From: Streptomyces liliiviolaceus
GTDB taxonomy: Bacteria; Actinomycetota; Actinomycetes; Streptomycetales; Streptomycetaceae
Assembly: GCF_018070025.1 (NCBI RefSeq)
Contig: NZ_JAGPYQ010000001.1
Span: 2,046,001-2,110,000, forward strand
DNA: 64,000 bases
Direction: 5' to 3'
The translations under genes were made by a program, and so were the position numbers. Of the stretch, positions 16,649 through 35,665 are shown piece after piece; position 1 is the first letter of the stretch, and every line of letters starts with the position of its first letter. The notes under the pieces are model-generated. The model worked only from the letters and a program-made list of their open reading frames with translations, ran no database searches and was not told the origin of the DNA.

Positions 16649-19600
16649 CTACAGCGGCACGGTGACCGTGATCGTCTCGCCGTTGCCCAGGTGCAGCATG
16701 CCCTTGCCGGGGGTGACCGGGCCGCCGACCATGCTGCGGGTCGTCCGGATGCCGATCAGTTCACCGGCGCCGGAGTCCTGCGGGGAGAGCAGCAGGCCGC
16801 GGCGGCCCTTCTTGGCCTCGACCTGCCAGCCGGAGAAGCCGCTGCACACCTCCTCCTCGTCACCGCCGATGACCAGCGCGAGGCCGCGGTCGGCGCCGCG
16901 CTGGACGAGCCGCTTCAGCTCGCGCTCGCAGTCCGCGTCCTCCAGGACCTCGCCGTCGTCGACGATGAGCACGACGGGCTCCTCGGGGCTCGCCGACTCG
17001 ATCGCCTCGTTGAAGTCGTCGCTCTCGATGTCGTCGTCGGTGAAGACCTTCAACACGCCGTCCTGGCCGTCGAGTTCGCGCAGCGGGGACGGGCGCGGGG
17101 CCGCGATGACGAGCCGTACGCCCTGGAGGAGGTACGAGCGGGCGAGGTTCAACAGGGCCGTGCTGCGGCCGGACTTCGCCGGGCCCGCGACGACGAACGT
17201 CGGTACGCCCTGTGAGAGGTCCGGGCCGAACGCCATGATGTCGTCGCCGCCGATGCCCGCCAGACCCCACAGCCTGGACCGGGCGACCGCCGGATCCCGC
17301 ATCTCCCAGGCCTCGGCGAAACCGATCCGGGAGGGCAGCGAGTCCACCCTGAACGGCCGTCGCGCACGCGGCACTTCGGTGTCCCGGGCCGTGGCCGCCT
17401 CACCGATCGTGGCGAGCGCGGCGGCCTGCCCCTGACCGCTCACGTCGTCGGAGAGCAGCGCGAACTGCGTCTCGATGGCCGACTCGTTCTTGAAGCCGCG
17501 GCCGGGCGGGATCTCCTCCGGCACCTTGCGCGCGTTGATGCCGAGCATCGTGAAGTCGGAACGGTCGGCGAGCCGCAGACCGTACTTCTCCTCGGTGAGC
17601 GAGGCCATCCGGCCGAGCAGCACCTGCCGGTCACCGGTGACGACGAGGTGGATGCCGACGCTCGCGCCCTCGCGCATCATCGTCTGCAACTCGTCGGTCA
17701 GCTCACCGTGGTTGTACTCGCCGAGCGTCGGCAGCCAGCCCTCCCACCGGTCGAGCAGCACGACGACGTGCGGCAGCCGCTCCTCCTCGGTGACGGACGC
17801 CCGCTGTTCGCCGATGTCGGCGAACCCCTTGTCGGACAGCAGGTCCTGACGCCGGGTCAGCTCGCCCTTGAGGCGGGTGATCAGCCGTACGGCCCGCTCC
17901 GTCTGGTTGCGCGCGACGACGGCTCCGCAGTGCGGCAGCCGCGTCAGGGCGTTGAGGGCGCCGTTGCCGCAGTCGATGCCGTAGAGGTGCACGTCCGCCG
18001 AGGAGTGCGTACGGGCGATCGAGCCGGCCAGGGTCCGCAGGATCTGCGAACGGCCGCTGCGGGGCGCGCCGCCCACGATGAGATGCCCGAAGGAGGAGAA
18101 GTCGACGACGACAGGGCGGCGGGCCTGGTCGGCGGGGATGTCCTCGACGCCGTACGGGGCCGGGGGGAGCTTCCCCGGTGCGAGCGCCGCGGCGGCGGGC
18201 ACCTCGACCTCGTCGAGCAGCAGCGTCTCGGAGAGCGCGGGCAGCCAGGGGCTGTGCTGCGAGGGGATGCCGAGCGAGCGGTTGGCGTCCCGGACGGCGT
18301 CGACGAGCACCTTGAGGTCGGTGATCTCCTCTTCCTCCCGCGCCTCGACCTTGGGCTTGACCAGCGCGGCCCGTCCCAGGTCCGCCCACTCCAGCGGGCC
18401 CGCCCAGGGCGCGAGGAGCCGGGGGTCGGCGGCTCCGGGCCGCCGGCCGCCGACCCGTCCGGACTGGAAGGGCACGAGCGAGGCGTGGCCGAGCCGGACG
18501 TACGCGCGGCCGGGCGTGTTCTTGGAGATGTGTCCGGCCTCGGGGGAGTCGATGACGTCGCTCGACTCGCCGCCGTCCGTGACGCGCAGCGCGATACGGA
18601 GGTTGGTGTTGGCGCGGATCTCAGGGGAGACGACACCGCTCGGCCGCTGGGTGGCGAGCAGCAGGTGGATGCCGAGCGAACGGCCCCGCTGAGCGATGTT
18701 GACGAGCCCCGTCACGAAGTCGGGCAGATCGCGCACCATCGAGGCGAACTCGTCGATGACGATGAGCAGACGCGGCAGCGGCCGGTGGGACGGCTCCCGG
18801 CGTACGAGGTCCTGGTAGTCCTCGATGTCCTTGGCGTCGGCGGCCGCCAGGATGTGCTCGCGGCGGTGCAGTTCGGCGCCGAGGGACTCCAGCGCGCGCT
18901 CGACGAGGTGGGCGTCGAGGTCGGTGACCATGCCGACGGTGTGCGGCAGGTTGACGCAGTCCTTGAAGGCCGCGCCGCCCTTGTAGTCGACGAGGACGAA
19001 CGTCATGTTCTCCGGCGTGTTGGCCACGGCGAGGGCCGCCACGATGGTCTGCAGCAGCTCCGACTTTCCGGAACCGGTCGTACCGGCGATCAGGCCGTGC
19101 GGCCCGTCCCGCCGGATGTCGATGCCGAAGGGTCCGTCGTACGACTCACCGACGACGGCCATCGTCGACTGCCCGCCCATGCGCCAGCGTGCGGCGACCG
19201 CGTCGCTCGTCGGCGGCTCCAGCTGGAGGACGTCGAGCAGCCGGCTGGAGCCGGGCAGCGCCGAGTCCTCCGTCTCGCCGCTGATGTCCCGGATGGGGGA
19301 CAGGGCGCGGGACAGGCGCGCGCACCAGGCGGACGACACGAAGTCCGGCCGTACGTTCCTGACCCGGGCGGTGCCTGTCTGCTCGACGCGCAGCCGCAGT
19401 TCGAGCGGCTTCTCCTCGCCCTCCTGCCGGTCGTCGGCCTCGGCGGTGTGCCAGGCCTGGAAGGAGGGGAAGCCACCTGGGCCCGCCTGATAGCCGAGGC
19501 CGGCCGGGGCGGCCGGGACGCCCCCGGAGGCGCCGCGGTCCTGCGACTTCTCCCGTTCCCTGGGCTTCGGTTCGGCGATGACGATGGCCTGGCACTCGCC

Positions 19601-21268
19601 GGGCAGGAACCGCTCCTCCGCGTCCAGGCAGATCGCGTACATGCTGACGGCGGGGCCCTCGCGCAGCAGCCGTACGACGCCGGGCATGGACCGCAGACGG
19701 CGGGAGCCGTCCCAGACGACGACGATGTCCGGGTCGGTGAAGTTGGTCTGGCGGCCGTTCTCCTTGGCCGCCTTCTGGCGGGCGTCGAGGAGCTGGGTCA
19801 GCTCGCCGATGCGGGCGCCGACGGTCTCGGCGTCCGTACCGATCAGGACGTTGGTGTCCTGGGCGCCGGAGGGCCGGGAGTGCGGCAGCCACCGGACCCA
19901 GTCCCAGGTCTGCTGGGCGCTGTTCTCGGTGAGGACGTAGAACTGGACGTCGAGGGGGCTGTGCAGGACGGCGCTCTGCGCGACGATCCACCGCCCGATC
20001 GCCTGCGCCGAGTCGCCGGGTCCCGCGATGCCGACGACACCGCGTTCGCGCAGCGGTACGGCGACGGGGGCGTCCTCGATCTGCCAGGTGACCTCGCGCT
20101 TGTGGTCGTCCTGCTCGGGGTCGTCGAGCACGACCTCGGAGGGCAGCTGGCCCGTGCCGACCCTGAGGAGCAGATGGTCGGCGTCGGTGCGGCGCCGTTC
20201 CCACAGGCGGGTGCGAGGGCCGGTGCTCAGCGACAGCACGGAGGCCGGGTCGGGCACGGCCTGCCGTCGGTCGAGGCGTTCGTCGAGGAGGGCGTCCTGG
20301 GCGTCCTTCTCGATCCGCTCCTTGTGCTCCTTGTACTCCTTGACCTGCTTCGCATGGGACTTGCGCCCGTGCTTCTTGTCCATGAAGTAGTTGCCGAACA
20401 GGATGACCGGGCTCAGCAACGCCATGATCAGGTAGTACCAGCGCCCGAAGATCATCACGGCCACGACGGCGCCGACGAGCGGGGTCACCGCCATCAGCCA
20501 GGGCAGCGGCCGGGCCTCGAAGTCACGTGGCTTCGCCGGCAGCTTGAACCGGGTCTGGCGCTCGGGGGGCTGGAGCCGGGGCGGCCGGTTGTAGTCGAGG
20601 CCGGTGCCGTCCTCGGACCACTTCAGGGCGGCGTTCGGCGGGGAGTAGCGGTCGAGCTCGAAGAGGGTGTTGCCGACGGCGATCTGAGCGCCGAGAGGCC
20701 AGTCGGTCTTGGTCTTCCCGTCCTTCTCCTCAAGGGGCTCACCGTCGAGGGTGATGTTCCCCTTGTCCTCCCCGTGGAGGGCGACCTGGCAGGTTCCGTC
20801 CGTTGCAACTGACAACGTGAGCGCTCGCGCGGCCAGCTCGGGGTCGTCGACGCGGATGGAGGAGGCGGGGCCGCTGCCGATGTCGTACCGCCCGATGCCG
20901 AGCCGGTGCACGGCGCCCGCGGTGGGCCCGCTCGCCACGCGCAGTTCGACGAGCCCGGTCGGCTCGCCGGGCAGGCAGCCGGCGGGGTCGTACAGGCTGA
21001 CGACGGCGCCTTCGCGCAGTGCGGAGGTCCCGACGGTGGCGCCCGGGTCGACGGGATGGCCGTCGACGTAGACGATCGGCGAGCCGCCGCCGGCCGGGGG
21101 CGTCCCGTGCTGCTGGCCGATGGGGATGATCTGGGCCCCACCGCTGTAGCCGACGTGTGAGGCCAGCTCCTTCGCTATGTCCCCCATGGAGGACTCAGGA
21201 TCCGCGTCGAGCACCACGTCGGCGCTGGCGCCGCCGAGCGGATCGACGACGGTCAGAGTCAGGCGCAC
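16649..21268 (-). CDS. eccC: Type VII secretion ATPase EccC/EssC (FtsK/SpoIIIE) with N-terminal FHA
   Basis: 1539-residue motor of the ESX/WXG100 secretion system at the inner membrane. GTG 21268 follows GGGAGGA and begins the conserved RLTLTVVDPLGG. Order: an ubiquitin/FHA-like segment (1-100), an FHA domain (about 110-215, with RYDIGSG), two membrane helices (about 255-300), then three FtsK-type ATPase domains. Domain 1 has canonical Walker A GTTGSGKSE near 729 and Walker B LLIVIDEFAS near 836. Domains 2 and 3 have GAPRSGRS (near 1069) and GPAKSGRS (near 1364), with Arg replacing the Walker lysine. The FHA plus one-chain layout resembles Firmicutes EssC more than split mycobacterial EccCa/EccCb. 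Divergent from the first Esx-like gene. Confidence 0.93.
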   Translation of the reverse strand: MRLTLTVVDPLGGASADVVLDADPESSMGDIAKELASHVGYSGGAQIIPIGQQHGTPPAGGGSPIVYVDGHPVDPGATVGTSALREGAVVSLYDPAGCLPGEPTGLVELRVASGPTAGAVHRLGIGRYDIGSGPASSIRVDDPELAARALTLSVATDGTCQVALHGEDKGNITLDGEPLEEKDGKTKTDWPLGAQIAVGNTLFELDRYSPPNAALKWSEDGTGLDYNRPPRLQPPERQTRFKLPAKPRDFEARPLPWLMAVTPLVGAVVAVMIFGRWYYLIMALLSPVILFGNYFMDKKHGRKSHAKQVKEYKEHKERIEKDAQDALLDERLDRRQAVPDPASVLSLSTGPRTRLWERRRTDADHLLLRVGTGQLPSEVVLDDPEQDDHKREVTWQIEDAPVAVPLRERGVVGIAGPGDSAQAIGRWIVAQSAVLHSPLDVQFYVLTENSAQQTWDWVRWLPHSRPSGAQDTNVLIGTDAETVGARIGELTQLLDARQKAAKENGRQTNFTDPDIVVVWDGSRRLRSMPGVVRLLREGPAVSMYAICLDAEERFLPGECQAIVIAEPKPREREKSQDRGASGGVPAAPAGLGYQAGPGGFPSFQAWHTAEADDRQEGEEKPLELRLRVEQTGTARVRNVRPDFVSSAWCARLSRALSPIRDISGETEDSALPGSSRLLDVLQLEPPTSDAVAARWRMGGQSTMAVVGESYDGPFGIDIRRDGPHGLIAGTTGSGKSELLQTIVAALAVANTPENMTFVLVDYKGGAAFKDCVNLPHTVGMVTDLDAHLVERALESLGAELHRREHILAAADAKDIEDYQDLVRREPSHRPLPRLLIVIDEFASMVRDLPDFVTGLVNIAQRGRSLGIHLLLATQRPSGVVSPEIRANTNLRIALRVTDGGESSDVIDSPEAGHISKNTPGRAYVRLGHASLVPFQSGRVGGRRPGAADPRLLAPWAGPLEWADLGRAALVKPKVEAREEEEITDLKVLVDAVRDANRSLGIPSQHSPWLPALSETLLLDEVEVPAAAALAPGKLPPAPYGVEDIPADQARRPVVVDFSSFGHLIVGGAPRSGRSQILRTLAGSIARTHSSADVHLYGIDCGNGALNALTRLPHCGAVVARNQTERAVRLITRLKGELTRRQDLLSDKGFADIGEQRASVTEEERLPHVVVLLDRWEGWLPTLGEYNHGELTDELQTMMREGASVGIHLVVTGDRQVLLGRMASLTEEKYGLRLADRSDFTMLGINARKVPEEIPPGRGFKNESAIETQFALLSDDVSGQGQAAALATIGEAATARDTEVPRARRPFRVDSLPSRIGFAEAWEMRDPAVARSRLWGLAGIGGDDIMAFGPDLSQGVPTFVVAGPAKSGRSTALLNLARSYLLQGVRLVIAAPRPSPLRELDGQDGVLKVFTDDDIESDDFNEAIESASPEEPVVLIVDDGEVLEDADCERELKRLVQRGADRGLALVIGGDEEEVCSGFSGWQVEAKKGRRGLLLSPQDSGAGELIGIRTTRSMVGGPVTPGKGMLHLGNGETITVTVPL

Positions 21269-21540
21269 GATCGTCCTCCCGTATACCCCTGCTGCCAGCT
21301 CGGGGCTGCCGAATACCGCCCCGTGCACTGACCCGCGTACTGACCCGTGACGATATCCGCTCCACCCTTCCCACAGGCAACGGCGTATGTGCCGGTTCCC
21401 TGAAGGCTCTTGCCGGAACCGGGGTGTGCTGCTGCAAGCGTCCTGCGTAAGCTGCATGCTCAGCGGACGATCGCATCATCCGCAACGGGAGCCACGGGGG
21501 TTGGCCCTGCGGCAAGTCGAGTTGTTTCGGAGGACGCCAC

Positions 21541-21846
21541 ATGGCCGGCGGCAAAGATGCAGATATCACTTATGACGAGATGCACAAGGCGGCTACCAAG
21601 CTGACCGACGCCAAGGACAAGATCGACGAGAAGCTCGACGCCCTTGAGCGCTACATCCAGGGCCTCGTCAAGGACGGCTACACCACCCGCAAGGGCTCGC
21701 AGGCCTTCGAGGACTCCTTCACGGAGTTCAAGAAGGGCGCGAAGGACACGATCGACGGCCTGACGGGCATGTCCAAGTTCCTCACGAGCGCCGCGAAGGC
21801 GTACCAGGACCTGGATGACGAGCTGGCCAAGGGTGTCAAGGGCTGA
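21541..21846 (+). CDS. WXG100-like (Esx) small helical protein without the WXG motif
   Basis: 101 residues, helix-turn-helix hairpin composition, Lys/Asp-rich. At the turn, where WxG is expected, it reads KDGYTTRKGSQAF, so the tryptophan is missing. Near the C-terminus AYQDLDDEL has the YxxxD secretion signal. Size and signal fit an ESX-secreted protein or partner. It is divergent from eccC (272-bp gap) with a GGAGG ribosome site, and is followed by a strong terminator, so it is its own transcription unit. It could pair with the next protein as a heterodimer; this is not shown. Confidence 0.8.
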   Translation: MAGGKDADITYDEMHKAATKLTDAKDKIDEKLDALERYIQGLVKDGYTTRKGSQAFEDSFTEFKKGAKDTIDGLTGMSKFLTSAAKAYQDLDDELAKGVKG

Positions 21847-21904
21847 GGCTGCTTTTGGGTGGTTTGCCGCCTTCGGGTGGCTGGGACAGCCCGGTGATCG
21901 TGTG

Positions 21905-21947: not shown

Positions 21948-21990
21948 TGCGTTGGGGACGATGCGTTGACGGCAGGGCGCGAAGCAGGGG

Positions 21991-22314
21991 GTGACTGTGG
22001 GCGAATATACGCGAATCGAAGACCTTGAGGTGATTCGCGGCATGGGTCGAGGGCTCGGCAGCATCAAGAAGTCATTCGACGGCCTTGAGGATCTCAAAGG
22101 AAAGTATGACGAAGATTTCGGGGAGAACGATCTCAAGGAAAAGTTCGAAGATTTCGTCGACAACTGGAAGCTCAGCCGGAAAGAGCTGACGGAAGAGATC
22201 GACGCGCTGTCCCAGATCGCGAAAGCTGCTGCGGAGGCGTACGAGGCCATCGATCAGCAGTTGGCGGATGCGATTCGCGGTGCAGAGGAACCGAAGAAGA
22301 GTAAGCGGGGGTAG
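21991..22314 (+). CDS. WXG100-like small helical partner protein
   Basis: 107 residues, all-helical and charged. VDNWKLSRKEL carries a tryptophan at the middle turn but no WxG. AYEAIDQQL near the C-terminus is a YxxxD signal. The gene lies 5 bp before the long T7SS-signal protein at 22320. The same order (small helical protein then long protein) occurs at 27.98 kb and 33.85 kb, so it is probably the dedicated partner of that protein. GTG 21991 or GTG 21997 could be the start. Codon use is A/T-richer than in the neighbours. Related small proteins at 27679, 33550 and 49383 share the central FxDxW pattern. Confidence 0.78.
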   Translation: MTVGEYTRIEDLEVIRGMGRGLGSIKKSFDGLEDLKGKYDEDFGENDLKEKFEDFVDNWKLSRKELTEEIDALSQIAKAAAEAYEAIDQQLADAIRGAEEPKKSKRG

Positions 22315-22319
22315 CGAAG

Positions 22320-23684
22320 ATGAGTGGGCGACCGCGCGATTGGCATCCTCTGGCGGATGCCGACCCTGTTCCCGGCGATCCGGATCAGCTCGTGGGGCTC
22401 GGAAAGAAGCTGCGGAAGACAGCGGACGAGCTCGGTCGACAGGTCAGAAACCTCAAAGCGATCTCGAAGGTCGACTCGTGGGATTCTGATGCCGGAAAGG
22501 AGTTCCGAAAAAAGGCCGAGGGCAGCCAAGGGAAGCTGGAGGCCGCCTATAAAAGGTACGATGCGGCGGCCGTCGCAATCGGTTCCACCATCCACGAGGT
22601 GGGTGGCGGCTATCAGGACCAGTTGCATGCCCCGTCGACGAACTATGCATCCGATCTGAATCGAGCGCAGAAGATCGCCGATTCGGCGTTGAGGGAAGCG
22701 CGAGAAGCGGATGAGAGGAGGAGTGCGACCCGGAAGAGTATCGACGGTCTCTCGGGCAGTAACGTAAAAGAGGACAAGGAAAAGCTGGAAGGCAAGCTGG
22801 ATCTGGCGTCCGGAGAAATCGAGGCGGCGCGAGAGAAGGTCGAGTCTGCGAAACAAATTCGAGATGATGCGGCAAGGAAAGCTCGTGAGGCCATCGATGG
22901 CATCATCTCTCACGATTCTTTGAAGGATGGCTATTGGGACAGCTTCCTTGATGAAGTGAACAACTGGTCGGCGAAAATTGCAACGGCTTGCGGTGTCGCT
23001 GCCATGCTTGTGGGCTGGATTCCGATCATCGGGCAGGCGCTTGCCGGGGTTCTGGGGACGATTGCCATGACTGCGAGCCTTATCGGGCTCGTCTGCACGG
23101 TGATTCAATTTGCCAGAGGTGACGCGGACTGGATGGACCTTGGGGTTGCCGCTCTCGGGTTTCTCGCGGCAGGTATCGGTAAGGCTTTCAGCAAGTATGC
23201 CGGAAAGTATCTCGCCAAGACGCTGCCCAGACTTCAGAGAGCCGTCAGCAGGCCAGGAGCGCGTGCAGCGGGAAATATCGCCAAGCGAGACAGGCAGAAG
23301 CTGAACCGACTTGCCGGACAGAGATCAAGCCTCACTGCCAGGGAAAAACTCAAGGCATTCGGAGAGCCTTTCAAGGATCATCTTCTCTCGCCGTCCGGAC
23401 TCAAGGACTCTTGGAGCAACATCAAGGTTGTAGGAAGGCCTGAGTCGTGGAGAGGCATGAGACAGACTTTCGGAGCGCAAGGAGGATTCAAATCTTTCAC
23501 GTTCCTGGATTCCGGAGTGGCCGCTGAGGTGAACGCGGCAAAAATTGCCGCGAAGGAGCTTCCAGAGATCTCTGCCATCAATAAAATCTCCAGTAAAGCA
23601 AGTGCTATTTCTCTTACTGGATCCGTGATCACTGTCGGTGGCCTTGCGGCCGACCCGGAAATCAACCCCCTACTGCCCGGCTGA
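22320..23684 (+). CDS. Putative T7SS-secreted protein with signal-like N-terminus and hydrophobic hairpin (1 of 3)
   Basis: 454 residues. The N-terminus (WHPLADADPVPGDPDQL..., about 1-100) matches the T7SS-signal type domain, with SWDSDAGKEF as a WXG-like turn. Residues 100-200 are coiled-coil. A long hydrophobic segment around 220-270 includes LVGWIPIIGQALAGVLGTIA, followed by a basic variable region and a short Leu/Pro end (PEINPLLPG). No nuclease, NADase or other toxin motif was recognised, and the tail is short. Low G+C codon use suggests recent acquisition. It lies between its helical partner (5 bp upstream) and two family B genes downstream. Membrane-acting effector or structural substrate are both possible. 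Confidence 0.72.
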   Translation: MSGRPRDWHPLADADPVPGDPDQLVGLGKKLRKTADELGRQVRNLKAISKVDSWDSDAGKEFRKKAEGSQGKLEAAYKRYDAAAVAIGSTIHEVGGGYQDQLHAPSTNYASDLNRAQKIADSALREAREADERRSATRKSIDGLSGSNVKEDKEKLEGKLDLASGEIEAAREKVESAKQIRDDAARKAREAIDGIISHDSLKDGYWDSFLDEVNNWSAKIATACGVAAMLVGWIPIIGQALAGVLGTIAMTASLIGLVCTVIQFARGDADWMDLGVAALGFLAAGIGKAFSKYAGKYLAKTLPRLQRAVSRPGARAAGNIAKRDRQKLNRLAGQRSSLTAREKLKAFGEPFKDHLLSPSGLKDSWSNIKVVGRPESWRGMRQTFGAQGGFKSFTFLDSGVAAEVNAAKIAAKELPEISAINKISSKASAISLTGSVITVGGLAADPEINPLLPG

Positions 23685-23700
23685 GAGCTGAGAGGCGTAC

Positions 23701-24324
23701 ATGAGTAGCGACGACCTTGAGTACAGGTATTCACTTGACCTTGCGCCGGGCTGGGTGGACCTTACTTTGCCCGATGGATCCAAGGCGACAGCCCAGAAAT
23801 TGGCTGCTGCTCGGGTTGCTCAGTTTAATCCGTTGAGTCTTGCTGTTCAGAAGACGTCGCTGGTCGACAGTATGGCTCGCGTGGCGATGAAGGCCCACGA
23901 GAGCGGCGCGGTCGTAGCGGGGACTTACTATACGGACTCGGGGGTCAGTATCGCCGATCTGGAACTCGCCGTCTTCGGTGATGATGGGGTGCAGCCCACG
24001 CCCGGGGATATTCAGCCCATGCTTCTCGAATGGGAAAACATGGAGGTGGTCGGCGATTCGGACGTGCGTTACGTGGATCTGTCGGCCGGGCCCGCGGTGC
24101 GGGTGCAAGCGGCCATGAAGGAGAAAAAGCTTTTCGGGCGAGGTCGGTTGTCCGAGTTCATCAGGTACGCCGTGTGCCCTGCGGTCAATGACGACGTGGT
24201 GTTGGTGACGGTTCGATGGACGACGGTCCAGTATTCCGAGGAGCTCGCACGCATGGTGGACAGCATGATTGACTCACTGAGTGTCGCACCGGTGCAGTCC
24301 GACGGGGAAGATTTCTGTGCCTGA
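23701..24324 (+). CDS. Family B protein (PsbP/Mog1-like pattern), T7SS-locus associated
   Basis: 207 residues of unknown function. It has the outline shared with five other genes here: an N-terminal LAPGWVDL-type strand, a mixed middle, a disulfide-free core and a C-terminal VTVRWTTVQYSEELARMVDS helix that ends in a beta strand. This resembles the PsbP/Mog1/LpqN pattern (lPxGW at the start, helix plus strand at the end) and lacks a signal peptide, so it is cytoplasmic. It lies 16 bp after the long substrate-like protein and overlaps the next family B gene. A role as substrate chaperone or immunity protein is inference. Confidence 0.6.
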   Translation: MSSDDLEYRYSLDLAPGWVDLTLPDGSKATAQKLAAARVAQFNPLSLAVQKTSLVDSMARVAMKAHESGAVVAGTYYTDSGVSIADLELAVFGDDGVQPTPGDIQPMLLEWENMEVVGDSDVRYVDLSAGPAVRVQAAMKEKKLFGRGRLSEFIRYAVCPAVNDDVVLVTVRWTTVQYSEELARMVDSMIDSLSVAPVQSDGEDFCA

Positions 24325-24916
24325 CGCAATCGAATGGGATTCCCCTCCCAAAGACTATGGTCTGATCGTCCCGGACGGCTGGTTCAAAATCCGGCTGGAG
24401 CCCGAACTCCGAGACCAGGGAATTGTTGCCCTTGCCGATCAGCAGTTCCGCGGTGTGGACAATGCTCCGCACGTCAAGGAACGGGTGATGCGTGATCTGC
24501 AGAAGCAGGCGAAGACGGCATTCCGGCGCGGCGGAATCGAGCTATACATTTCGACTCTGACGGTAGGAGATGTCCCTCTGGCCTCCTCGCTTCTGGTATC
24601 CATTTGCCCGCCTGATTCCTGGCCTCGCAACGCGACCGTTCATCAGCTGGCGGAATATCTGGAGGCGCCCGCCAAACACGTCGCACTGGTCGACCTTCCG
24701 GTGGCCGGAAAGGCTGCACGGGAAAGATACCGGGAGGATCCCGACCCTGAGGTGCAGATGGGTAACACCTTGCCCACCACAACCGTCGCCTTCCATATTC
24801 CCATCCCTGCCACCCGCAACGTGCTCAGCATGACCTTCTCGACGCCTGTCGATCCTTTGGCCGACCAGATGGTGGAGCTGTTCGACGCGGTGGCGGAAAC
24901 GCTGCACTGGATCTGA
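24317..24916 (+). CDS. Family B protein (PsbP/Mog1-like pattern), second in operon
   Basis: 199 residues from GTG 24317, which overlaps the end of the previous gene by 8 bp, with GGGGAAG as ribosome site; translation is probably coupled. The N-terminal YGLIVPDGWFKIRLEPEL and C-terminal PLADQMVELFDAVAETLHW closely match the protein at 28060 (FGLITPEDWYRIPLQPED and PIADAMAELFDAVASTLRW), so the two are paralogues. No catalytic motif is visible and there is no signal peptide. The pattern suggests a PsbP/Mog1-type fold. It lies downstream of substrate-like protein 1. Confidence 0.65.
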   Translation: MPDAIEWDSPPKDYGLIVPDGWFKIRLEPELRDQGIVALADQQFRGVDNAPHVKERVMRDLQKQAKTAFRRGGIELYISTLTVGDVPLASSLLVSICPPDSWPRNATVHQLAEYLEAPAKHVALVDLPVAGKAARERYREDPDPEVQMGNTLPTTTVAFHIPIPATRNVLSMTFSTPVDPLADQMVELFDAVAETLHWI

Positions 24917-25111
24917 CGTCAAAAGGTGAACGTGTAGGGCAGTTCTGTTGGTGCGCTGACGACGTCGGCTCGGCAACCCGACTGTCCAGTCCGTCCGTCG
25001 ACTGGTGGTCGGCCAATGTTCGGTGGCGACGTCCCTGTCGCCGACGGCCCTGCCTCATGGTCGCCCTGGCCAGTTATCCTCGTCCGAACCCCGTGAGGAA
25101 TGGGAGAGTCC

Positions 25112-25690
25112 ATGTCTGTCGGATCAGGGGCCGGGAAGCCCCGGGCGCAAAGCTCCGGGCGGTCGGTCGCGGGGAACGTCGCCTTCGGCGCCGGGCTGCT
25201 GCTCGTGCTGGCGACCATGACGCTCGGTGGCTATGCGGGCGTCGCCCTGGCCCTCGGCCTGGCCGACGACTCGTTCCTGTCGGCGGCGGTGCCGGACGAC
25301 GGACGCAACGCCCTGGTCGTCGGCGGCATCGGCGCCGGCGGTCTGGCGGGCCTGCTGGTGCCGCTGATCCTGTTCGCGGCGGTCCGCGGGACCGAGGAGA
25401 AGCCCAGGACCGGACCCGGCGAGGCTCTCTTCAAGGTGATCGGCACCCTCCTCCTCGGCGTCTATCTGCTGCTGGTCTCCTTCGTCGTGGCGCAGCTCGG
25501 CCGGCTCCTGCCCGAGGGAGCGACCACCCTGGTGAGCGTCTTCGTCGTCGGCTTCAGCTGGATGCCGCTGGCGCTCGTGCCGTGGGAGCGGTTCGGGCTC
25601 GACGGCGTACAGGGACTGCTGGGTACGTCGCAGGGCACTTCCCGGGGCCGGGGGCGCGGGCAGGGCGACGCTTCAGACGAGTCGCACTGA
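25112..25690 (+). CDS. Membrane protein, four predicted helices
   Basis: 192 residues from ATG 25112, chosen over ATG 25100 because GGGAGAG at 25102-25108 is the ribosome site. Four hydrophobic stretches are clear (AFGAGLLLVLATMTLGGYAG, ALVVGGIGAGGLAGLLVPLI, LFKVIGTLLLGVYLLLVSFV, TLVSVFVVGFSWMPLALVPW), with a basic Gly/Arg/Ser-rich tail. Function unknown. It is convergent with, and overlaps by 18 bp, a family B gene. A TATCCT box at 25075-25080 could be its -10. It may be a membrane part of the secretion locus, by position only. Confidence 0.78.
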   Translation: MSVGSGAGKPRAQSSGRSVAGNVAFGAGLLLVLATMTLGGYAGVALALGLADDSFLSAAVPDDGRNALVVGGIGAGGLAGLLVPLILFAAVRGTEEKPRTGPGEALFKVIGTLLLGVYLLLVSFVVAQLGRLLPEGATTLVSVFVVGFSWMPLALVPWERFGLDGVQGLLGTSQGTSRGRGRGQGDASDESH

Positions 25691-26287
25691 CTGCGCCAAC
25701 TCGTCCGCCATCCGGCCCAGTTCCTCACCCAGCCCCAGGGCTCCCCAGAGCAGGCGGCACTCCAGTGCCGTGGGATGCGCCCGCGGCAGGACGTAGTGCG
25801 CCACACCCTCCAGTACCGTGCCGCTGTCGGCGCCCGGATCCGTCGGCTCCAGGCGGTGCACCCGCAGTGCGGCCCCCAGCGGCAGCTCCACCTCCGTGAT
25901 CTCCGGCGGCCGGAAGAACGGCCCCTCGGCGCTCTCCGCCTCCGCGCGCAGCACGTCCAGGCGCAGCGACCCGGCGGGGATGCCCGCCAGTTCCCGTACG
26001 CAGTAGAAGGCGGCCACGCCACCGTCCTGAGGCGCGAGGAGCGCGGCGCAGAGCGCTTTCTGGCGGGCGGCGACATCGCGGTACCAGAGCACGTCCTGGG
26101 CGAACGCCGTACGCAGGTCGTCGGGTACGTCCGCCGCGAAGTGCTCGTCGGCCGCGGACCGGGCCCACTCACCGGGGCGTGGGGTGGCGAGGTCCAGTAC
26201 GAGCCAGTTGTGCGCGGCGGGCAGCGTGACGCGGCACTGGTGCCAGTCGGCCGCCGCGGTCTCCGTGGCCGTGTCGGTGGTGGGCAT
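25673..26287 (-). CDS. Family B-like protein (PsbP/Mog1-like, divergent member)
   Basis: 204 residues, no signal peptide. It begins with a Thr/Ala-rich stretch, then WHQCRVTLPAAHNWLVLDLA. It ends LLWGALGLGEELGRMADELA... before a final hydrophobic strand, like the ends of the other family B proteins. Similarity is weak and based on pattern, not on long identity. It is the last gene of a minus-strand unit: helical partner (27679), long substrate-like protein (26294), this gene, with 6 bp between the last two. Its 3' end overlaps the convergent membrane-protein gene. Confidence 0.55.
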   Translation of the reverse strand: MPTTDTATETAAADWHQCRVTLPAAHNWLVLDLATPRPGEWARSAADEHFAADVPDDLRTAFAQDVLWYRDVAARQKALCAALLAPQDGGVAAFYCVRELAGIPAGSLRLDVLRAEAESAEGPFFRPPEITEVELPLGAALRVHRLEPTDPGADSGTVLEGVAHYVLPRAHPTALECRLLWGALGLGEELGRMADELAQSVRLV

Positions 26288-28059: not shown

Positions 28060-28725
28060 TCAGGCCTTTTTCTGCCAGCGCAGAGTACTGGCGACCGCGT
28101 CGAAGAGTTCCGCCATCGCGTCGGCGATCGGCTCCAACGGGGTGCTGAACGTCAGCATGAGCACCTCGTCCCGGTCCGGTACGGGGACGAAGTACTCCAC
28201 GACGGTGTCCTCGAACTCGGAGCCGAGCCGCCGCGCTTCCCGGGTCCGTTCCGTACGCCGCCGACGGACGGCCCGCCCGGCGGCCGGCAGGCGCACCTGG
28301 GAGGTCTCGCCCTTGTCGGACAGCGCCGAGACCGTGTCGAGGGCGTCGAACCGCCGCTGCAGGCGCGAGATCAGTAGGGAGGCCGACAGCGGAATCCCCG
28401 CCGCCTCCAGGAACGACAGGTAGAGCACCACTCCGCCCTGCTCGACGCCCGCCTCGGCCGCGCCCAGCAGCTGCTCCTGCGCCTGCCGCCGAAGCGCGGG
28501 CTGGTCGTCCACGCCCGCGAACTGCCTTTTGACCAGTGCGCTCACGGACGCTTCCCGACGGTCCTCGGGCTGGAGCGGGATGCGATACCAGTCCTCGGGC
28601 GTGATGAGCCCGAAGACGTTCTCACTCCCGGCGGCTTCGTTGCCGTCGTCGCTCCCGGGATTCTCTGCGCTGTCGGGGCTCTCGGCGCTCACGGCACTCC
28701 GGCTGGACGGCGGGGTCTGCTGCAT
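28060..28725 (-). CDS. Family B protein (PsbP/Mog1-like pattern)
   Basis: 221 residues from ATG 28725, preferred over an upstream ATG at 28791 because a promoter-like TAGCGT lies 8 bases before it and the extra residues would cover the promoter motif at 28757-28770. After a Ser/Asp/Glu-rich 35-residue lead come FGLITPEDWYRIPLQPED and, at the end, PIADAMAELFDAVASTLRW, nearly matching the 24317 protein. No signal peptide. It heads the minus-strand unit carrying the helical partner and long substrate-like protein, so it is likely part of module 2. Confidence 0.66.
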   Translation of the reverse strand: MQQTPPSSRSAVSAESPDSAENPGSDDGNEAAGSENVFGLITPEDWYRIPLQPEDRREASVSALVKRQFAGVDDQPALRRQAQEQLLGAAEAGVEQGGVVLYLSFLEAAGIPLSASLLISRLQRRFDALDTVSALSDKGETSQVRLPAAGRAVRRRRTERTREARRLGSEFEDTVVEYFVPVPDRDEVLMLTFSTPLEPIADAMAELFDAVASTLRWQKKA

Positions 28726-28731
28726 GCCGAC

Positions 28732-28780
28732 CGACGCTAGCCGTGGGGGGTGTGTTTTCGCCACAGCGAACTTTCCCGCG
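28732..28780 (-). promoter_or_regulatory. Promoter region with TTCGC-N4-GCGAA palindrome (copy A)
   Basis: On the minus strand, a TTCGC-N4-GCGAA palindrome (28757-28770) is followed by a conserved CCACGG and a TAGCGT -10-like box 8 bases before the ATG. The same elements with the same spacing occur at 35.7 kb upstream of the lipoprotein gene. The mRNA may be leaderless. Confidence 0.6.
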
Positions 28781-28797
28781 AGGAACCGCATAACGGC

Positions 28798-29424
28798 TCA
28801 ATTCGGACTGGCAGGGCTGGTGGGGCTGGTGGGGCTGGGATCACCGTTCCGCGTACGCCGCCCGTCGAGGACCATGGCCACGGTGATCCACAGCGCGGCC
28901 GTGACGACAGTCGCCACCAACCCGACGGCCCACAGCCACGGCTGGGTACGGAAGGTCCAACTGGGCGGACTCGATACCCCGCGGCCCCACTTGCCCGTGT
29001 CCTGGGCGACGAAGATCAGCGATACGAGTTGCAGCATCACCGCTCCGCACGCGACGGCCAGCAGCGTGCGGCCGATCGAGCGGGCGGTGTGAGCCTTCCA
29101 GAACTGCCTGTTCAGCGGGGAGAGGGCCTTGATGAAGAGCACCAGGACGCAGGGCACGAGCGCTCCCATGAACACTGCGAAGCCGTACGTACCGCCCGGC
29201 CACTCGTCGGCGGCCCACTTTCATGTGTCGTCGCCCCAGTAACCGCTCGAAAGGGCGAGCAGGACGAACACGGCGGTGCAGGAGAGGAACACGAGGCACC
29301 CGAACAGTGTGCTGCTCTTGCCGGATCCCTTTTCCTCGCGCACCGACCTGCTGCCGGGGCGGTGTTCGTACTGCAGCGAGGCGGCGGCCGCTCTGCGTCG
29401 GCGGGGTTTGGCGGATCCTGCCAT
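28798..29424 (-). pseudogene. Membrane protein gene split by an in-frame TGA
   Basis: Read through, the frame gives about 208 residues: a basic Ala/Arg-rich start, a first membrane helix (LFGCLVFLSCTAVFVLLALS), then GYWGDDT-stop-KWAADEWPGG, three more hydrophobic segments and a Ser/Pro tail. The stop is TGA at 29221-29223, exactly where TGG (Trp) would continue the sequence in a Trp-rich stretch. No convincing ribosome site precedes the downstream ATG at 29175. A nonsense mutation or a base-call error is the simplest reading; two separate small membrane proteins is the alternative. It is in the T7SS locus, between family B and family A genes. Confidence 0.6.
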
Positions 29425-29471
29425 CTTGTTTCCCCCTGGATTGAATTCGTTGGAGAAGCGTCCTTGGAGGC

Positions 29472-30362: not shown

Positions 30363-30486
30363 CAGTGCGTCTCTCCTGCGTTGTCCCACAGTTCCGTGGA
30401 TGAACTTTCGAAAATCTCGGAAAGAGGCCCGACGGAGACTGCGACGTAACTGAATCGGGTGGTGACGAGACCTACCGCCTCACCGC

Positions 30487-31227
30487 TCAGCCTGCTTCAA
30501 CCGCGCTCCCCGGTGAATCCGCGAGCGGATCCGTGAAGGACACTGTCCGGAGCACGGCCCCCATCAGGTCGCAGAACTCCGCCCAGTAGTCCGTGGACGC
30601 CGTGTGGAGTGTGAAGACCGCAGTGAAGGGACCTGTGGGGAAAGGAACATGGACCTGGATCTGTCCCGTGAGGAGATCCACCGGCTCTCCGCTCTCTGTC
30701 AGTTCCGGCTTGATCTTGTACTCGCGCAGAGTTACGCAGGACACAGCAGGTCCACACGGCAGGTCGAGCCAACGGGCGTCGTTATGCGGGTCACCGGAGA
30801 GAATCGCGAGAATGCCCTGGGCCACGACATCGGTGTCGTCACTGTCCTGGTCCGTGGGTACCGCCGCGACAGTGAGGGCACACTGGGCGACACCGGCCGA
30901 GCCCTCGTGCCTGATCACCTCGGCGTCCGGCTCCTCGCTGTCTTCCTCCACCGTGGAGAACAGCCCCATCGCCGAGTACGAGATTCCTGTACCGGCCATG
31001 AGTTCGGCCATCGCCGCATAGTAGGGAGCGGCGGGCTCCCAGATGTTCTCGTTGCCGCGGGAATAGAGCTCCCGGACGAAGGAATGGGAGAGTTCGGCCC
31101 GCTCTTCGGGAGTGGCGGCGAGGGGGAGGGCGAAAAAACCTTCCGGTGCCAGGAACCAGATGGGTGGGGGTTCCTGGGCGTCGGAAGTACCGGGAAGGAT
31201 GTCGGCGGGGCCGCTGGGCTGGGTCAT
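30487..31227 (-). CDS. Family B-like protein (PsbP/Mog1-like pattern)
   Basis: 246 residues from ATG 31227; a TTG at 31251 is the alternative start. IWFLAPEGFFALPLAATPEERAEL parallels the IVPDGW and ITPEDW openings of other members, and the end (FTAVFTLHTASTDYWAEFCD, then LMGAVLRTVSF) fits the closing helix and strand. It contains an acidic middle (SEEPDAEV, DQDSDDTDV). No signal peptide. It lies between two family A genes in a minus-strand run; the gap to the upstream family A gene is about 40 bp, so they may be co-transcribed. Confidence 0.58.
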   Translation of the reverse strand: MTQPSGPADILPGTSDAQEPPPIWFLAPEGFFALPLAATPEERAELSHSFVRELYSRGNENIWEPAAPYYAAMAELMAGTGISYSAMGLFSTVEEDSEEPDAEVIRHEGSAGVAQCALTVAAVPTDQDSDDTDVVAQGILAILSGDPHNDARWLDLPCGPAVSCVTLREYKIKPELTESGEPVDLLTGQIQVHVPFPTGPFTAVFTLHTASTDYWAEFCDLMGAVLRTVSFTDPLADSPGSAVEAG

Positions 31228-31266
31228 ACGGGGCGAGGCCGTTCTGTTCAAGTACGCAGGTGAGGG

Positions 31267-32181: not shown

Positions 32182-32266
32182 GTTCGTACGCGCCCTCTCA
32201 CCTGGCTTGCTCGGCGAAACTGAGTCCGCTGTCCTGTGGGCCACTCTGCCATCCGCCGCAGGCGGC

Positions 32267-33547
32267 TCATCCACCCGAGGCTGATTTCTCGAACTGGTCA
32301 CCGGGGAAGAGAGCCTCGCCGACATGCTGATGGATACTGGTGACCTTGGGCAAGATTTTCGCTCCGGCATCGATCGCGATTCCGGCGCCCAGCGGATTGA
32401 TCGCCACTCCGGGCAGCAGGTTGAGTCCCTTGGAACCGAGCCACTGCCCCTCGTGATAGCCCGCGGCGGCAAGGCCCCCCATGCGGGATTTCAAACCGCT
32501 GGTCGCATGTTCGACTTTCCATACGTCGCCGGATTTTCCGCCGATCTTGATCAGACCGGCTTTGCCGAGACCGTGTTCAAGGCCCCGCGAGTTCTTGCCG
32601 AAAGCCATCAGGATGCGCGAGCTGCCGATTTCAGTGTATTGAAATCCCTTGCCGAGAGCGCCGGCGACTTCCACGGCTTTGGAGCCACCGACCACTTTGA
32701 TGCCCTTGCTGAACATGCCGATACCCGGCATCATCCCCACCGCGTCGAGCCCCATTTGCATCCAGCTCACATCTGCACCGCCCCACTTGGCCAGCCCGTG
32801 GGCCGCCAACGCCAGGCCACTCGCGATGAGTGCCGCAGTACCGAAGATCGCCGCGAGCGGAGGGAAGGGAAGCGTGATGATGGCGAGCAGTCCCAGAACC
32901 GCGCTCAGGTCGCTCAGTAGGTCGCCGATCAGTTTGATCATGTCGGCGTGGTCCTTGACCCACTGACCGGTGGCGTCCCAAGCGTCGGCGACCCCCTTCG
33001 TGAGCTTGTCCCAGAAGCCCGGCTCGTCCGGGGCGATGTCGCCCGCCTTGTCGAGTTCCTTGCTGATCGCGCCGGCGGCCCGCTTGTAGCGGTCCTCCAG
33101 GTCGTGGACCTTGCCCGTGACCTCGTCGACCGCGCCGGAGGCCTTGCCCAGGTCCTCGCTGCCCTTGCCGTCGCCCTTCGCGTCGGCCTTCTGCTGGGCC
33201 GTCTCGCGTGCCTCCAGCTTCTCGCCGGCCGACTTCTCCAGGCGGTTCGCCTCGTCCTGGAAGTCCTGGAGTTCGTTCGCCCACCGGTGCAGGGCGCGCG
33301 AGGCCTTGTCGAAGGAGTCGTGGCTCTTGCTGATGAGCGGCGTGACGTCCTGGCCGACGTACTCGGTGAAGGCGACCGCGGTCTTGCCCTTCCAAGCCCC
33401 CGCCTCGATCCGCTCCAACTCCCGCAGAGTCGTGCTCAGATCGCTTGCCAGGCCCCCGAGCTTCTTCGCGAGGTCCCGGGTGTCGTCGACGTCTCCCGGC
33501 GTCGGATCCCAGCCTATGTGGGGGAAGGCGGGTCGCTTGCCGGCCAC
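32267..33547 (-). CDS. Putative T7SS-secreted protein with hydrophobic segment (3 of 3)
   Basis: 426 residues. The N-terminal signal-like domain (IGWDPTPGDVDDTRDLAKKL...EAGAWKGKTAVAF) has a true WxG (WKG). A coiled-coil follows, rich in Lys/Glu/Ala (about 95-190), then a hydrophobic region at about 205-245 (AIITLPFPPLAAIFGTAALI), less similar than in copies 1 and 2. The C-terminus (EHATSGLKSRMGGLAAAG...ALFPGDQFEKSASGG) is unlike theirs. GTG 33547 lies 2 bp after the stop of its helical partner gene. No enzyme motif was found. The start of the protein matches T7SS-signal type sequences better than LXG. Confidence 0.7.
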   Translation of the reverse strand: MAGKRPAFPHIGWDPTPGDVDDTRDLAKKLGGLASDLSTTLRELERIEAGAWKGKTAVAFTEYVGQDVTPLISKSHDSFDKASRALHRWANELQDFQDEANRLEKSAGEKLEARETAQQKADAKGDGKGSEDLGKASGAVDEVTGKVHDLEDRYKRAAGAISKELDKAGDIAPDEPGFWDKLTKGVADAWDATGQWVKDHADMIKLIGDLLSDLSAVLGLLAIITLPFPPLAAIFGTAALIASGLALAAHGLAKWGGADVSWMQMGLDAVGMMPGIGMFSKGIKVVGGSKAVEVAGALGKGFQYTEIGSSRILMAFGKNSRGLEHGLGKAGLIKIGGKSGDVWKVEHATSGLKSRMGGLAAAGYHEGQWLGSKGLNLLPGVAINPLGAGIAIDAGAKILPKVTSIHQHVGEALFPGDQFEKSASGG

Positions 33548-33549
33548 GT

Positions 33550-33849
33550 CTACTTGTCCTTCTTCTTCGTCTTGAGGGACTCGGCGAGGTCGTGGTCGAG
33601 CTTGCCGAACTCCTCGCCGATCTTGTTGATCATCTTCACGGCGCCCTGGGTGTGCTTGCCGAGCTGCTTGATGCCGTACCCCCAGTCGTCGGCGAACTCG
33701 TGCACGTCCTCGATGAGCCCGCTCTCGCCGACCGAGGAGCCGTCGGCCCCGCGGAGCGTGCGGCGCGCGCTGTCCATCCGGTCGCTGATCGTCGAGAAAG
33801 TCTTCTTCAGATCCTCGAAGACGGTGTCCTCAAGGCGCAGGTCACTCAT
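33550..33849 (-). CDS. WXG100-like small helical partner protein
   Basis: 99 residues, helical. FADDWGYGI at the turn carries tryptophan and a nearby Gly, and EFGKLDHDL near the end has Phe where Tyr is expected in YxxxD. It ends in a Lys-rich tail. It directly precedes the long protein at 32267. Same module order as at 21991 and 27679. Likely partner/chaperone of that protein. Confidence 0.76.
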   Translation of the reverse strand: MSDLRLEDTVFEDLKKTFSTISDRMDSARRTLRGADGSSVGESGLIEDVHEFADDWGYGIKQLGKHTQGAVKMINKIGEEFGKLDHDLAESLKTKKKDK

Positions 33850-33911
33850 GGGTACTCATAGCCCTTCACAGCCACTCATGTGGGGATGGACGGTCGGGCG
33901 GGGGAAGAGAG

Positions 33912-34997
33912 TCAGCGGTTCACCGACTGGATCTCCTCCACCGTGATGTTCTGCGTGGCCTCGATCGTGCCGTCCGGCATGCCGACCGCTCCCGCCTGGC
34001 CGGTGCCCGTCCAGCTGATCTCCCAGGTGAGGGCTGCCTTGAGGGGGAGCGTCTCGCCACCGGAGGAGCGGCGGTAGATGATCCCGCAGGGCGGTGTCTC
34101 CCCGGCCTTGCCCTTGGCGTAGGGCTCGCCGATCCTGCCGTCGACTATGGGGCAGCCGCCGTCGGCCGGGATCGTCGTCGCGTCCGCCGTACCCGGGCTG
34201 AGCGTCAGCGACTTCGGCTTCGCCGTCGTGGTCGCCTGGATGTTGAAGCCGGGGACGTTGATCGCGGCCGTCGCCTGGACCTCGTCGAACACCGCCTCGT
34301 CCAGCCACGCCCACGTCGGCAGATTCACCTTGGTGATCGCCTCAGGGGCGAGCGTCACCTTGGTGCCGGGCAGTTCCATGTGCTGGTACGCGAGTGCCGC
34401 CAGCATCTCCGGAGTGATGGCCTCCTCGTACTGCGGCGGCGGGGCCTCGCCGTTGTCGACCCAGAAGGGCAGGTCGCTGCACGAGGTGCGCTTGAGGTAG
34501 TCCGGCTCGTTCGGGTTCTCGACGCCGGCCCAGAACATCCCCTCGCCGTCCTTGTCGACGTTGTAGTCCTTGTAGCCGGGGGTGTCGGTCCAGCCGTAGT
34601 CGTCCTCGTAGTGGCGTTGCGTCTCACCGAGCGCCGCGCCCGCGTGACCGGTCATGCCGGGCTTGCCCATCTCGGTCTTGAGGTTCTCGGACATCTCCTT
34701 CTTGAAGTCCTTCGCACCCAGGTACGGGGCGTACCAGCAGGAAGGGGGCGTCCAGTTGACGTCGGCGGACGATACGTTGCCGGTGCCGCCGCTCTTGGTC
34801 ACGGCTCCGGAGAACTGGACGCTGGCGGCGGCGTAGATGCCAGTGGAGTCCTTCCCGCCTTTTTCATCGGCGCTGGCGCCGGTGCCATCGCGGGGTCCTC
34901 CCGCCGCATGGGCCGGTGCCGCGAGGACAAGAGTGCCAAAGACCAGAGTCAAGGCCGTCGAACTGATGCCGAGGGATGTGCGCCGCGCTGCGTTCAC
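33912..34997 (-). CDS. Secreted protein with Sec signal peptide, T7SS-locus associated
   Basis: 361 residues from GTG 34997, which overlaps the lipoprotein stop codon (GTGA). An N-terminal basic patch and hydrophobic core (TALTLVFGTLVLAAPAHA) form a signal peptide with an AHA-type cleavage site. The mature protein is rich in Trp, Tyr, Pro and charged residues and contains at least four Cys (SCWYAPYL, TSCSDLPFW, GGCPIVDG, PPCGIIYRR), probably disulfide-linked outside the cell. No enzymatic motif recognised. Coupled with the lipoprotein gene upstream, it may be a surface or cell-wall component of the secretion locus. Confidence 0.8.
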   Translation of the reverse strand: MNAARRTSLGISSTALTLVFGTLVLAAPAHAAGGPRDGTGASADEKGGKDSTGIYAAASVQFSGAVTKSGGTGNVSSADVNWTPPSCWYAPYLGAKDFKKEMSENLKTEMGKPGMTGHAGAALGETQRHYEDDYGWTDTPGYKDYNVDKDGEGMFWAGVENPNEPDYLKRTSCSDLPFWVDNGEAPPPQYEEAITPEMLAALAYQHMELPGTKVTLAPEAITKVNLPTWAWLDEAVFDEVQATAAINVPGFNIQATTTAKPKSLTLSPGTADATTIPADGGCPIVDGRIGEPYAKGKAGETPPCGIIYRRSSGGETLPLKAALTWEISWTGTGQAGAVGMPDGTIEATQNITVEEIQSVNR

Positions 34998-35665
34998 TGG
35001 CACTTCGTCGCCTCCTCCACGAACACCTTGGACGCCTGCCACAACTGGTCGCTCGTCGGGTACTTGACCATGATGATCTTGAAATAGCTGAAGTCCTCAA
35101 GACTGGGTTCGGTCTTCAGAACCTTTCCCGTCTTGACCTCTTTGGCGTAAAACTTGCTGGAATCAGTACAAAAGGCTACTTCTACGGAATTGCCATTGGC
35201 GGTGGAGCGCGTAGTGGCGTCGTAGTTACGTCGGGTGCCGGTAGCGGTCCAGTCGCCCTTGAGCCACTCGTTGATCTGGACTTCCGCGTAGCGCAGTCCC
35301 TCACCGGTGGAGTAGGCGGTTACGGCTGCATCCTCGGCGGTGCGCTTGCCTACGCCCCGGTAGAGGGCGCGAACGTAGTTGGCGGCGTCGTCCATCGCCG
35401 CTACCTCGTTCTTCGCCTTCGGTTCGTCCCAGTCGAAGACCAGGTTCAGCTTCATGTCCTTGGGCAGGGACACGTCCACCCCGTCGGGGCTGTCCTCGCT
35501 CGACCCCGCCGGCTCCGCCGACTTCGTCGGCTTCTTCGATTCCTGGTCGGCGCCCGCGATCTTGTCGTTGTCGCTGGACTTGTCGTCCCCGCCGCCGCAC
35601 GCCGTGAGCAGCAGGGCTGCGGTTGCGGCGAGCGCGGCAGCAACGGGCAAAGAGCGGCGCGTCAC
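34994..35665 (-). CDS. Lipoprotein, NTF2-like pattern
   Basis: 223 residues with a lipoprotein signal peptide (GTG start, RRSLPVAAALAATAALLLT, lipobox LLTAC), then an acidic Ser/Lys/Asp linker of about 50 residues and a globular part. NYVRALYRGVGKR and ETNEWLKG-like segments followed by strands suggest an NTF2-type fold. It is anchored on the outer face of the membrane and translationally coupled to the next secreted protein. Upstream lies the second copy of the TTCGC-N4-GCGAA promoter element, so it probably starts the operon. Confidence 0.8.
   Translation of the reverse strand: MTRRSLPVAAALAATAALLLTACGGGDDKSSDNDKIAGADQESKKPTKSAEPAGSSEDSPDGVDVSLPKDMKLNLVFDWDEPKAKNEVAAMDDAANYVRALYRGVGKRTAEDAAVTAYSTGEGLRYAEVQINEWLKGDWTATGTRRNYDATTRSTANGNSVEVAFCTDSSKFYAKEVKTGKVLKTEPSLEDFSYFKIIMVKYPTSDQLWQASKVFVEEATKCQ

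Follow-up and report, generated by a model that had tools for sequence, protein, structure and literature searches.

A type VII secretion locus of Streptomyces liliiviolaceus with putative Eag-like chaperones for membrane-helix cargo

Overall organization of the locus

The stretch of DNA analyzed here, 64,000 nucleotides of contig NZ_JAGPYQ010000001.1 from Streptomyces liliiviolaceus (the window), contains a type VII secretion system (T7SS) locus in which three long proteins, L1, L2 and L3, are each encoded directly downstream of a small partner protein (P1, P2 and P3) and are accompanied by chaperone-like proteins of two families, A and B. The best reading of its sequence and of the predicted structures is a T7SS variant with chaperones similar to the Eag proteins of the type VI secretion system (T6SS), acting on membrane-helix cargo. 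A and B would shield a hydrophobic segment of the long protein, a putative export substrate, until it is handed over to the ATPase of the system, a proposal in which our confidence is about even.

In module 1, which is on the plus strand, the gene for P1 (21991-22314) is followed by that for L1 (22320-23684) after a gap of 5 bp. Modules 2 and 3 are on the minus strand. The genes for P2 (27679-27981) and L2 (26294-27682) overlap by 4 bp, and those for P3 (33550-33849) and L3 (32267-33547) are separated by 2 bp. These positions and spacings had been given in an earlier note on the window and are borne out by the open reading frame (ORF) coordinates. The same note described an ATPase gene followed by three modules. 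This is true of the coordinates but not of the strands: the minus-strand ATPase gene is divergent from a WXG100 gene and module 1, while modules 2 and 3 are oriented back toward module 1. The locus does not end at 35665 but continues to about 40.3 kb, with another member of the A/B superfamily, A4 (39602-40303), and a copy of a family called C (38471-39556), the latter recognized by eye. The GC content is 0.572 over 22001-24000, where module 1 is situated, compared to about 0.70 over large parts of the window, and module 1 may be a recent arrival.

The long proteins

L1 - L3 consist of 426-462 amino acids (aa) and are paralogous to each other (phmmer E values of 7e-43 for L1/L2, 6e-28 for L2/L3 and 4e-8 for L1/L3). 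Their N-terminal helical domain resembles the Pfam family T7SS_signal, PF21725, with scores of 24.3, 25.0 and 25.3 bits (E values of 3.4e-5, 2.1e-5 and 1.6e-5) against a cut-off of 27; L3 also has a match to WXG100 below its cut-off (6.9e-5). The relatives L104, L067, L206 and L162 exceed the PF21725 cut-off, and L211 has no match. The columns that are invariant over 16 relatives include R3, P4, W9, D17, P18, P20 and G21. The N-terminal domain is followed by a strongly hydrophobic stretch, identified by hydropathy at about residues 195-266 (about 218-266 in L1, 195-254 in L2 and about 206-252 in L3).

A similar N-terminus and stretch are found at the head of proteins of ~1500 aa elsewhere in this genome and in others. 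A Pfam scan identified DUF6531 and RHS repeats in L104 and L067 (from the genome of the locus), which have the hydrophobic stretch, and in L206, which does not have it. Because these three proteins carry such domains, the 700-2000 aa class is named Rhs-type here, a label that extends from the scanned members to the rest of the class.

The conservation of 16 L2 orthologs is 0.76-0.82 in the last blocks and 0.68-0.90 in the remainder, being highest in the hydrophobic part (0.85-0.90). With C-terminal blocks conserved to about the same degree as the remainder, L2 lacks the pattern of a polymorphic toxin. The idea that L1 - L3 are ordinary polymorphic toxins was rejected on this ground and because no Pfam toxin domain is present in the three proteins.

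Seven giant proteins of the T7SS-signal type (L178, L184, L189, L190, L214, L223 and L225) have more than 2700 aa within the region examined, six of them running off its end. Five of the seven have an EssC-like ORF no more than 3 kb away, and the giants, which have the hydrophobic segment but no A or B gene at that distance, possibly represent a second way of handling such cargo.

The partner proteins and the export motif

The partners are also mutually paralogous (phmmer E values of 1e-17 for P1/P2, 7e-7 for P1/P3 and 3e-6 for P2/P3). They were called WXG100-like in the earlier note. They miss the Pfam WXG100 cut-off (E values of 0.045 and 0.071, and none listed), but they do carry a [YF]xxxD motif near the C-terminus, in the form of YxxxD in P1 and P2 and FxxxD in P3. 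YxxxD is likewise present near the C-terminus of the WXG100 protein W1, which has 101 aa and is encoded on the plus strand at 21541-21846 (WXG100, 1.4e-14). An export motif of the FxxxD/YxxxD type has been reported for T7 partners (PMC9600955). The motif occurs in 86 of 102 distinct partners adjoining related long proteins, in 84 of them at 25 residues past the W, compared to a mean of 8.7 and a maximum of 18 in a shuffled control; some of the 102 are close orthologs of each other.

The chaperone-like superfamily

Families A and B have one predicted fold, that of Mog1/PsbP, according to AlphaFold2 models of A2 (28060-28791, minus strand; pLDDT 81.6) and B2 (25673-26287, minus strand; pLDDT 87.9) and to the fold matches of these models. 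The Eag chaperones of the T6SS, which hold the transmembrane helices of effectors, have this fold. Of the earlier suggestion of a chaperone-like family belonging to the system, the recurrent chaperone-like genes have stood, while families A and B, named separately in the note, share one predicted fold.

The A and B genes flank the long-protein gene or come after it, and there are often two per unit. X1 (23701-24324, plus strand) is of the B type, being matched by a B-only profile (5e-8) as well as by the A1 profile, of which it is itself a row. X2 (24281-24916, plus strand) is of the A type (phmmer E value of 2e-37 against A2). A3 (30487-31251, minus strand) is divergent; it scores 1.4e-37 with the A1 profile, in which it is a row, and 0.043 with an A-only profile. 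The sixth member, A4, is on the plus strand and is matched by the A1 profile at 5.7e-46 without being a row of it. No long-protein gene adjoins A4. In genome G109, a 1589-codon frame with an L-type N-terminus is preceded, at a distance of ~120 bp, by a gene with an A4-like profile score.

No Pfam family corresponds to A or B among the window proteins and 38 superfamily members that were scanned. Three other relationships were considered and rejected. The symporter family SDF was matched by just 4 of the 38 members, with a best E value of 0.007, and GTP_cyclohydro2 by one, at 0.016. LpqN is among the top fold matches, but A and B do not have the N-terminal hydrophobic stretch expected of secreted LpqN-like lipoproteins. 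The weak hydrophobic stretch of A2 (residues 121-141) falls within predicted strands. The superfamily is present in 61 of 394 genomes of the class Actinomycetes and in 22 of 137 genera, both numbers being lower bounds.

Association with the hydrophobic segment

The N-terminal 190 residues of L were searched against 150 Streptomyces genomes, and the search was repeated on 60 genomes that have L but no listed superfamily member. In the 160 regions examined, 227 matches to L were reduced to 219 by removing repeats and matches that did not include the start of the model; 204 of these had enough flank and length. An A/B member is located within 3 kb of 104 of the 164 long proteins with the hydrophobic segment, compared to 0 of the 40 without it. 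When the 29 from loci obtained through A2 are subtracted, the counts are 75 of 135 and 0 of 40. Because the pool is biased, the comparison within the chosen set of genomes is preferable. In genomes first scored as negative, a profile rebuilt on every member found places one beside 10 of the 19 long proteins that have the segment and beside 0 of the 39 that lack it; the first profile had found 4 of the 19. All 94 short long-proteins with an upstream partner have the segment, and 89 of them have a superfamily member within 3 kb (63 of 68 if the loci obtained through A2 are left out). In the 700-2000 aa class, the segment is present in 38 of 38 proteins from regions of family-positive genomes and in 1 of 35 elsewhere, the former being top-scoring matches and the latter for the most part the best match of each genome.

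The closeness of A and B to those 89 units would also be expected if they were targeting chaperones of the EspG or EsaE sort, binding the helical signal of the P-L pair instead of the hydrophobic segment, and EspG-like and EsaE chaperones do exist in other T7SS types (PMC11217815). However, in the genomes first scored as negative, the 39 signal-bearing proteins without the segment have no A or B, although this involves few independent events. Furthermore, neither EspG nor EsaE is among the six Pfam families to which any of the 38 superfamily members has a match. A targeting role is considered improbable.

Several observations weigh against segment-shielding chaperones. Of the 40 segment-less proteins, 39 come from genomes picked for having no listed member, and the remaining one is a cut fragment, so that the outcome of the pooled test is in part predetermined. 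No A or B is found within 3 kb of 30 of the 41 Rhs-type proteins that have the segment, nor of any of the seven giants (>2000 aa), all of which have it. The segment changes state just 3 times on the L tree, which yields 2 supported independent contrasts, a number insufficient for a test, and the association with cargo therefore has little independent weight. The A-only and B-only profiles find no match to each other (hhalign probability 0.1); the kinship of the two families rests on intermediates and on the predicted fold. The Pfam scan of the 38 superfamily members yielded no match to the Eag family at E values up to 1. Finally, the Mog1/PsbP fold serves many other roles as well, including that of immunity proteins such as Tsi3.

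Proposed mechanism and the question of immunity

We infer binding, hand-over, export and membrane insertion as the steps of the following mechanism. In this actinobacterial T7SS, which has an EssC-type ATPase and a kinase, every unit would make an L protein for export. The N-terminal helical signal of L would pair with the WXG100/Lap-like P protein bearing the [YF]xxxD export motif. A and B, soluble proteins with the predicted Mog1/PsbP fold, would bind the hydrophobic segment of L in the cytosol, preventing it from aggregating or from entering the membrane of the producer, and would be stripped off as the P-L pair passes to the ATPase. Outside the cell, the freed segment might enter a membrane, either as a pore or by aiding other cargo across.

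The same genes can be read as a toxin with its antidotes. A and B would then be cytosolic immunity proteins that neutralize a pore-forming toxin L, comparable to ExiAB and EsxX, and the polytopic membrane proteins T1 and T2 would be membrane immunity proteins. T1 (25100-25690, plus strand; assigned by hydropathy and neighborhoods) is convergent with B2; T2 (28798-29175, minus strand) is small, with a match to DUF6338 at 6e-5, below the cut-off. In the short units, cytosolic immunity proteins of the ExiAB kind would look much like chaperones. Six Rhs-type relatives that are not cut by the end of their region, among which L104 is the one scanned with Pfam, each have a superfamily gene situated 91-262 bp upstream. 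In the 15 pairwise comparisons, identity has a median of 0.79 (0.64-0.93) over the first 300 residues, 0.45 over residues 400-1200 and 0.23 (0.15-0.77) over the last 120 residues, whereas the median is 0.80 (0.68-0.91) for the upstream superfamily gene. Hence the upstream gene resembles the signal and segment in its conservation and not the toxin tip, which in this small set favors a chaperone role over immunity. The upstream position of A and its constancy while the last 120 residues differ do not fit immunity, nor do the 16 L2 orthologs, which are conserved over their full length, unlike a fast-changing toxin tip. Immunity is on the whole an unlikely function for A and B, less so than targeting, and one protein may combine it with a chaperone role.

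Linkage to the ATPase gene and recurrence of the units

In a survey of 150 Streptomyces genomes with the N-terminal 736 residues of the ATPase as a query, a close EssC relative was defined by a score of at least 750 bits and an EssC-type gene by at least 200 bits. A profile survey found the superfamily in at least 59 of these genomes. It is present in 35 of the 35 with a close EssC relative and in 24 of the 115 others, the latter rising to 33 of 115 after at least 9 further genomes proved to have members. The superfamily counts are lower bounds because, of the 60 genomes rated negative, at least 9 have a member beside L; the first survey scored 20 candidates per genome for most genomes and the class survey 7, and five of the nine missed genomes needed the rebuilt profile. 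Fisher tests on the EssC and segment counts treat related genes as independent; 2 to 3 contrasts remain on the tree.

Among the best 150 copies listed, 57 have an EssC-type gene at most 10 kb away, 82 at most 20 kb and 101 at most 50 kb. The other 49 have none at these distances, and 22 of them are on contigs for which no such gene is listed. The genes for A, P, L, B and T1 occur together in 20 of the 27 loci obtained through A2, and 3 of these 20 have EssC within the region, which extends up to 10 kb on each side. The partner, long-protein and chaperone-like genes thus form recurrent units, as had been proposed, both in these 20 loci and at the 89 short long-proteins. The superfamily is linked to EssC-type genes, its copies not being mostly away from them, but the units also stand alone, as is evident from the 49 distant copies and from the fact that only 3 of the 20 cassettes have EssC.

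Copies away from EssC would fit a clustering due to a travelling toxin island, whose genes do not form one machine and in which A and B act in something else. The GC content, falling to 0.57 at 22-24 kb from about 0.70 around, and the few independent contrasts on the L tree are consistent with this explanation. Nevertheless, the five genes stay together in those 20 loci, and the presence of A or B near L switches state 20 times on the tree without ever being seen beside a segment-less L. The island is the least probable of the explanations considered, and we regard it as very unlikely.

Relation to known secretion systems

The ATPase (16649-21457, minus strand) is an EssC/EccC-like FtsK protein of 1602 aa with an N-terminal extension (FtsK_SpoIIIE, 2.3e-60). 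It matches the solved EccC and YukB chains (4nh0, 7.8e-86; YukB, 1.3e-68). The extension has an FHA-like domain (PF16697, 1.8e-7), which scores 31.7 bits against a cut-off of 33.2. Residues 62-168 have no Pfam match, so a known domain in the first part of the ATPase was dropped from consideration. Tail to tail with the ATPase gene is an ORF for a Ser/Thr protein kinase (14299-16563, plus strand; Pkinase, 1.5e-35, residues 170-415), the true start of which is probably farther downstream.

The ATPase and the nearby WXG100 gene are general T7SS features. The locus was compared part by part with T7SSa, T7SSb and T7SSd; T7SSc - j are described in PMC11217815. EccB, a T7SSa component, is not encoded in the locus, the single match in the genome being on another contig (C2:392454). 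EssB/YukC, a T7SSb component, has no match in the whole genome, although the Bacillus subtilis control was detected. The kinase gene is a T7SSd-like feature. T7SSd ATPases also have N-terminal FHA domains, for which the FHA-like domain here, slightly short of the Pfam threshold, is a candidate. T7SSd of Actinomycetota also has a WXG100 protein and an EssC-type ATPase (PMC11217815), but no gene of the size of TsdI, its large Ig-like exported protein, is present at 14-50 kb of the window, where the ATPase apart there is no open frame of more than 1200 aa; the search for TsdI covered this part of the genome. The name Streptomyces has 0 occurrences in the text of PMC11217815. Judged by its genes, the locus fits none of the three types fully.

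An actinobacterial counterpart of the Firmicutes LXG system had been suggested in the earlier note. Since no EssB was found in the genome, the locus is not a plain counterpart of T7SSb, but the unit of partner, long and chaperone-like proteins does recur. LXG toxins with Lap1 and Lap2 similarly have a small WXG100-like partner gene and an FxxxD/YxxxD-type motif (PMC9600955); the locus differs in having one partner gene upstream of L and a PF21725-like signal family. No match of L1 - L3 to the LXG domain PF04740 is listed at E values up to 1.

Another similar system is EsxX of the Staphylococcus aureus T7SSb with ExiA/ExiB and ExiC/ExiD, a membrane-active substrate with small helical partners, a soluble protein pair and polytopic membrane genes (PMC12744356). 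However, ExiAB are DUF5085 proteins with a GyrI-like SHS2 fold, different from the Mog1/PsbP fold predicted here, and the machine parts are unlike. How a membrane-seeking T7 substrate is kept harmless before export has been described for EsxX with ExiAB (PMC12744356) and likewise for TelE with TipE.

The T6SS Eag proteins (DUF1795; EagT6, SciW), which serve Rhs/prePAAR effectors, grip effector transmembrane helices as a claw-like dimer (PMC7773334). They share with A and B the predicted fold, a small soluble gene adjoining a membrane-helix effector, and Rhs cargo. In contrast, the cargo here has a type VII signal in place of PAAR, the chains are about 200 aa long compared to about 140-150 in Eag, there are often two paralogs per unit, and no superfamily member scanned is matched by the Pfam model of Eag. 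For T6SS operons, PsbP/MOG1-like proteins were proposed in 2012 to be an adaptor between toxin and machine. The fold is the same, but the proposal was made for T6SS, and the sentence on T7SS in that paper names an FtsK-type ATPase and EsaC (PMC3482391). No work joining T7SS with the Mog1/PsbP fold was found in a literature search that was mostly at the level of titles and the beginnings of abstracts and did not cover most subscription journals.

More speculatively, T7SS might have recruited the Mog1/PsbP fold for dedicated helix chaperones, as T6SS did for Eag; helix shielding would then be a general requirement that two unrelated machines satisfy with the same fold. The paralogs may heterodimerize around helices, and the short conserved L proteins could be membrane-inserting devices that help Rhs toxins to enter target cells. 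This wider analogy is tentative and less probable than the shielding role itself.

A superfamily that is spread across Actinomycetes and has the predicted fold of the T6SS helix chaperones makes the question of handling before export testable in another T7SS branch, and names a protein family that is missing from Pfam. For Streptomyces, the locus is a candidate contact weapon besides antibiotics. If true, the shielding mechanism would add a new means by which type VII machines deal with greasy cargo.

Neighboring genes

Family C has three copies, all on the minus strand and none with a Pfam match. C2 (29472-30389) is a paralog of C3 (5e-62). The C3 ORF (31267-32472) overlaps L3 with its 5' end, and its C2-like part begins at about residue 91. 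The third copy, at 38471-39556, was assigned from its sequence by eye. By eye, family C looks like a bacterial PH-type domain; EsaC of T7SS loci has been termed PH-like (PMC3482391).

Upstream of P3 on the minus strand are S3 (33912-35042), predicted to be exported, with a hydrophobic stretch at residues 22-44, and the lipoprotein-like Lp (34994-35665), assigned by hydropathy and a lipobox recognized by eye. Both recur adjoining L genes. S3 lies no more than 3 kb from 43 of 122 short L proteins, 11 of 41 Rhs-type proteins with the segment and 0 of 34 without it.

A possible Rhs remnant after A4 was sought with one Rhs query against the window; its sole matches at E values up to 1e-3 were L1 - L3. 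A few kb past the last superfamily gene, at 43498-48417, are Tad-type pilus genes (Pfam: T2SSE, two T2SSF and TadE). Tad genes have been reported to adjoin T7SSh (PMC11217815).

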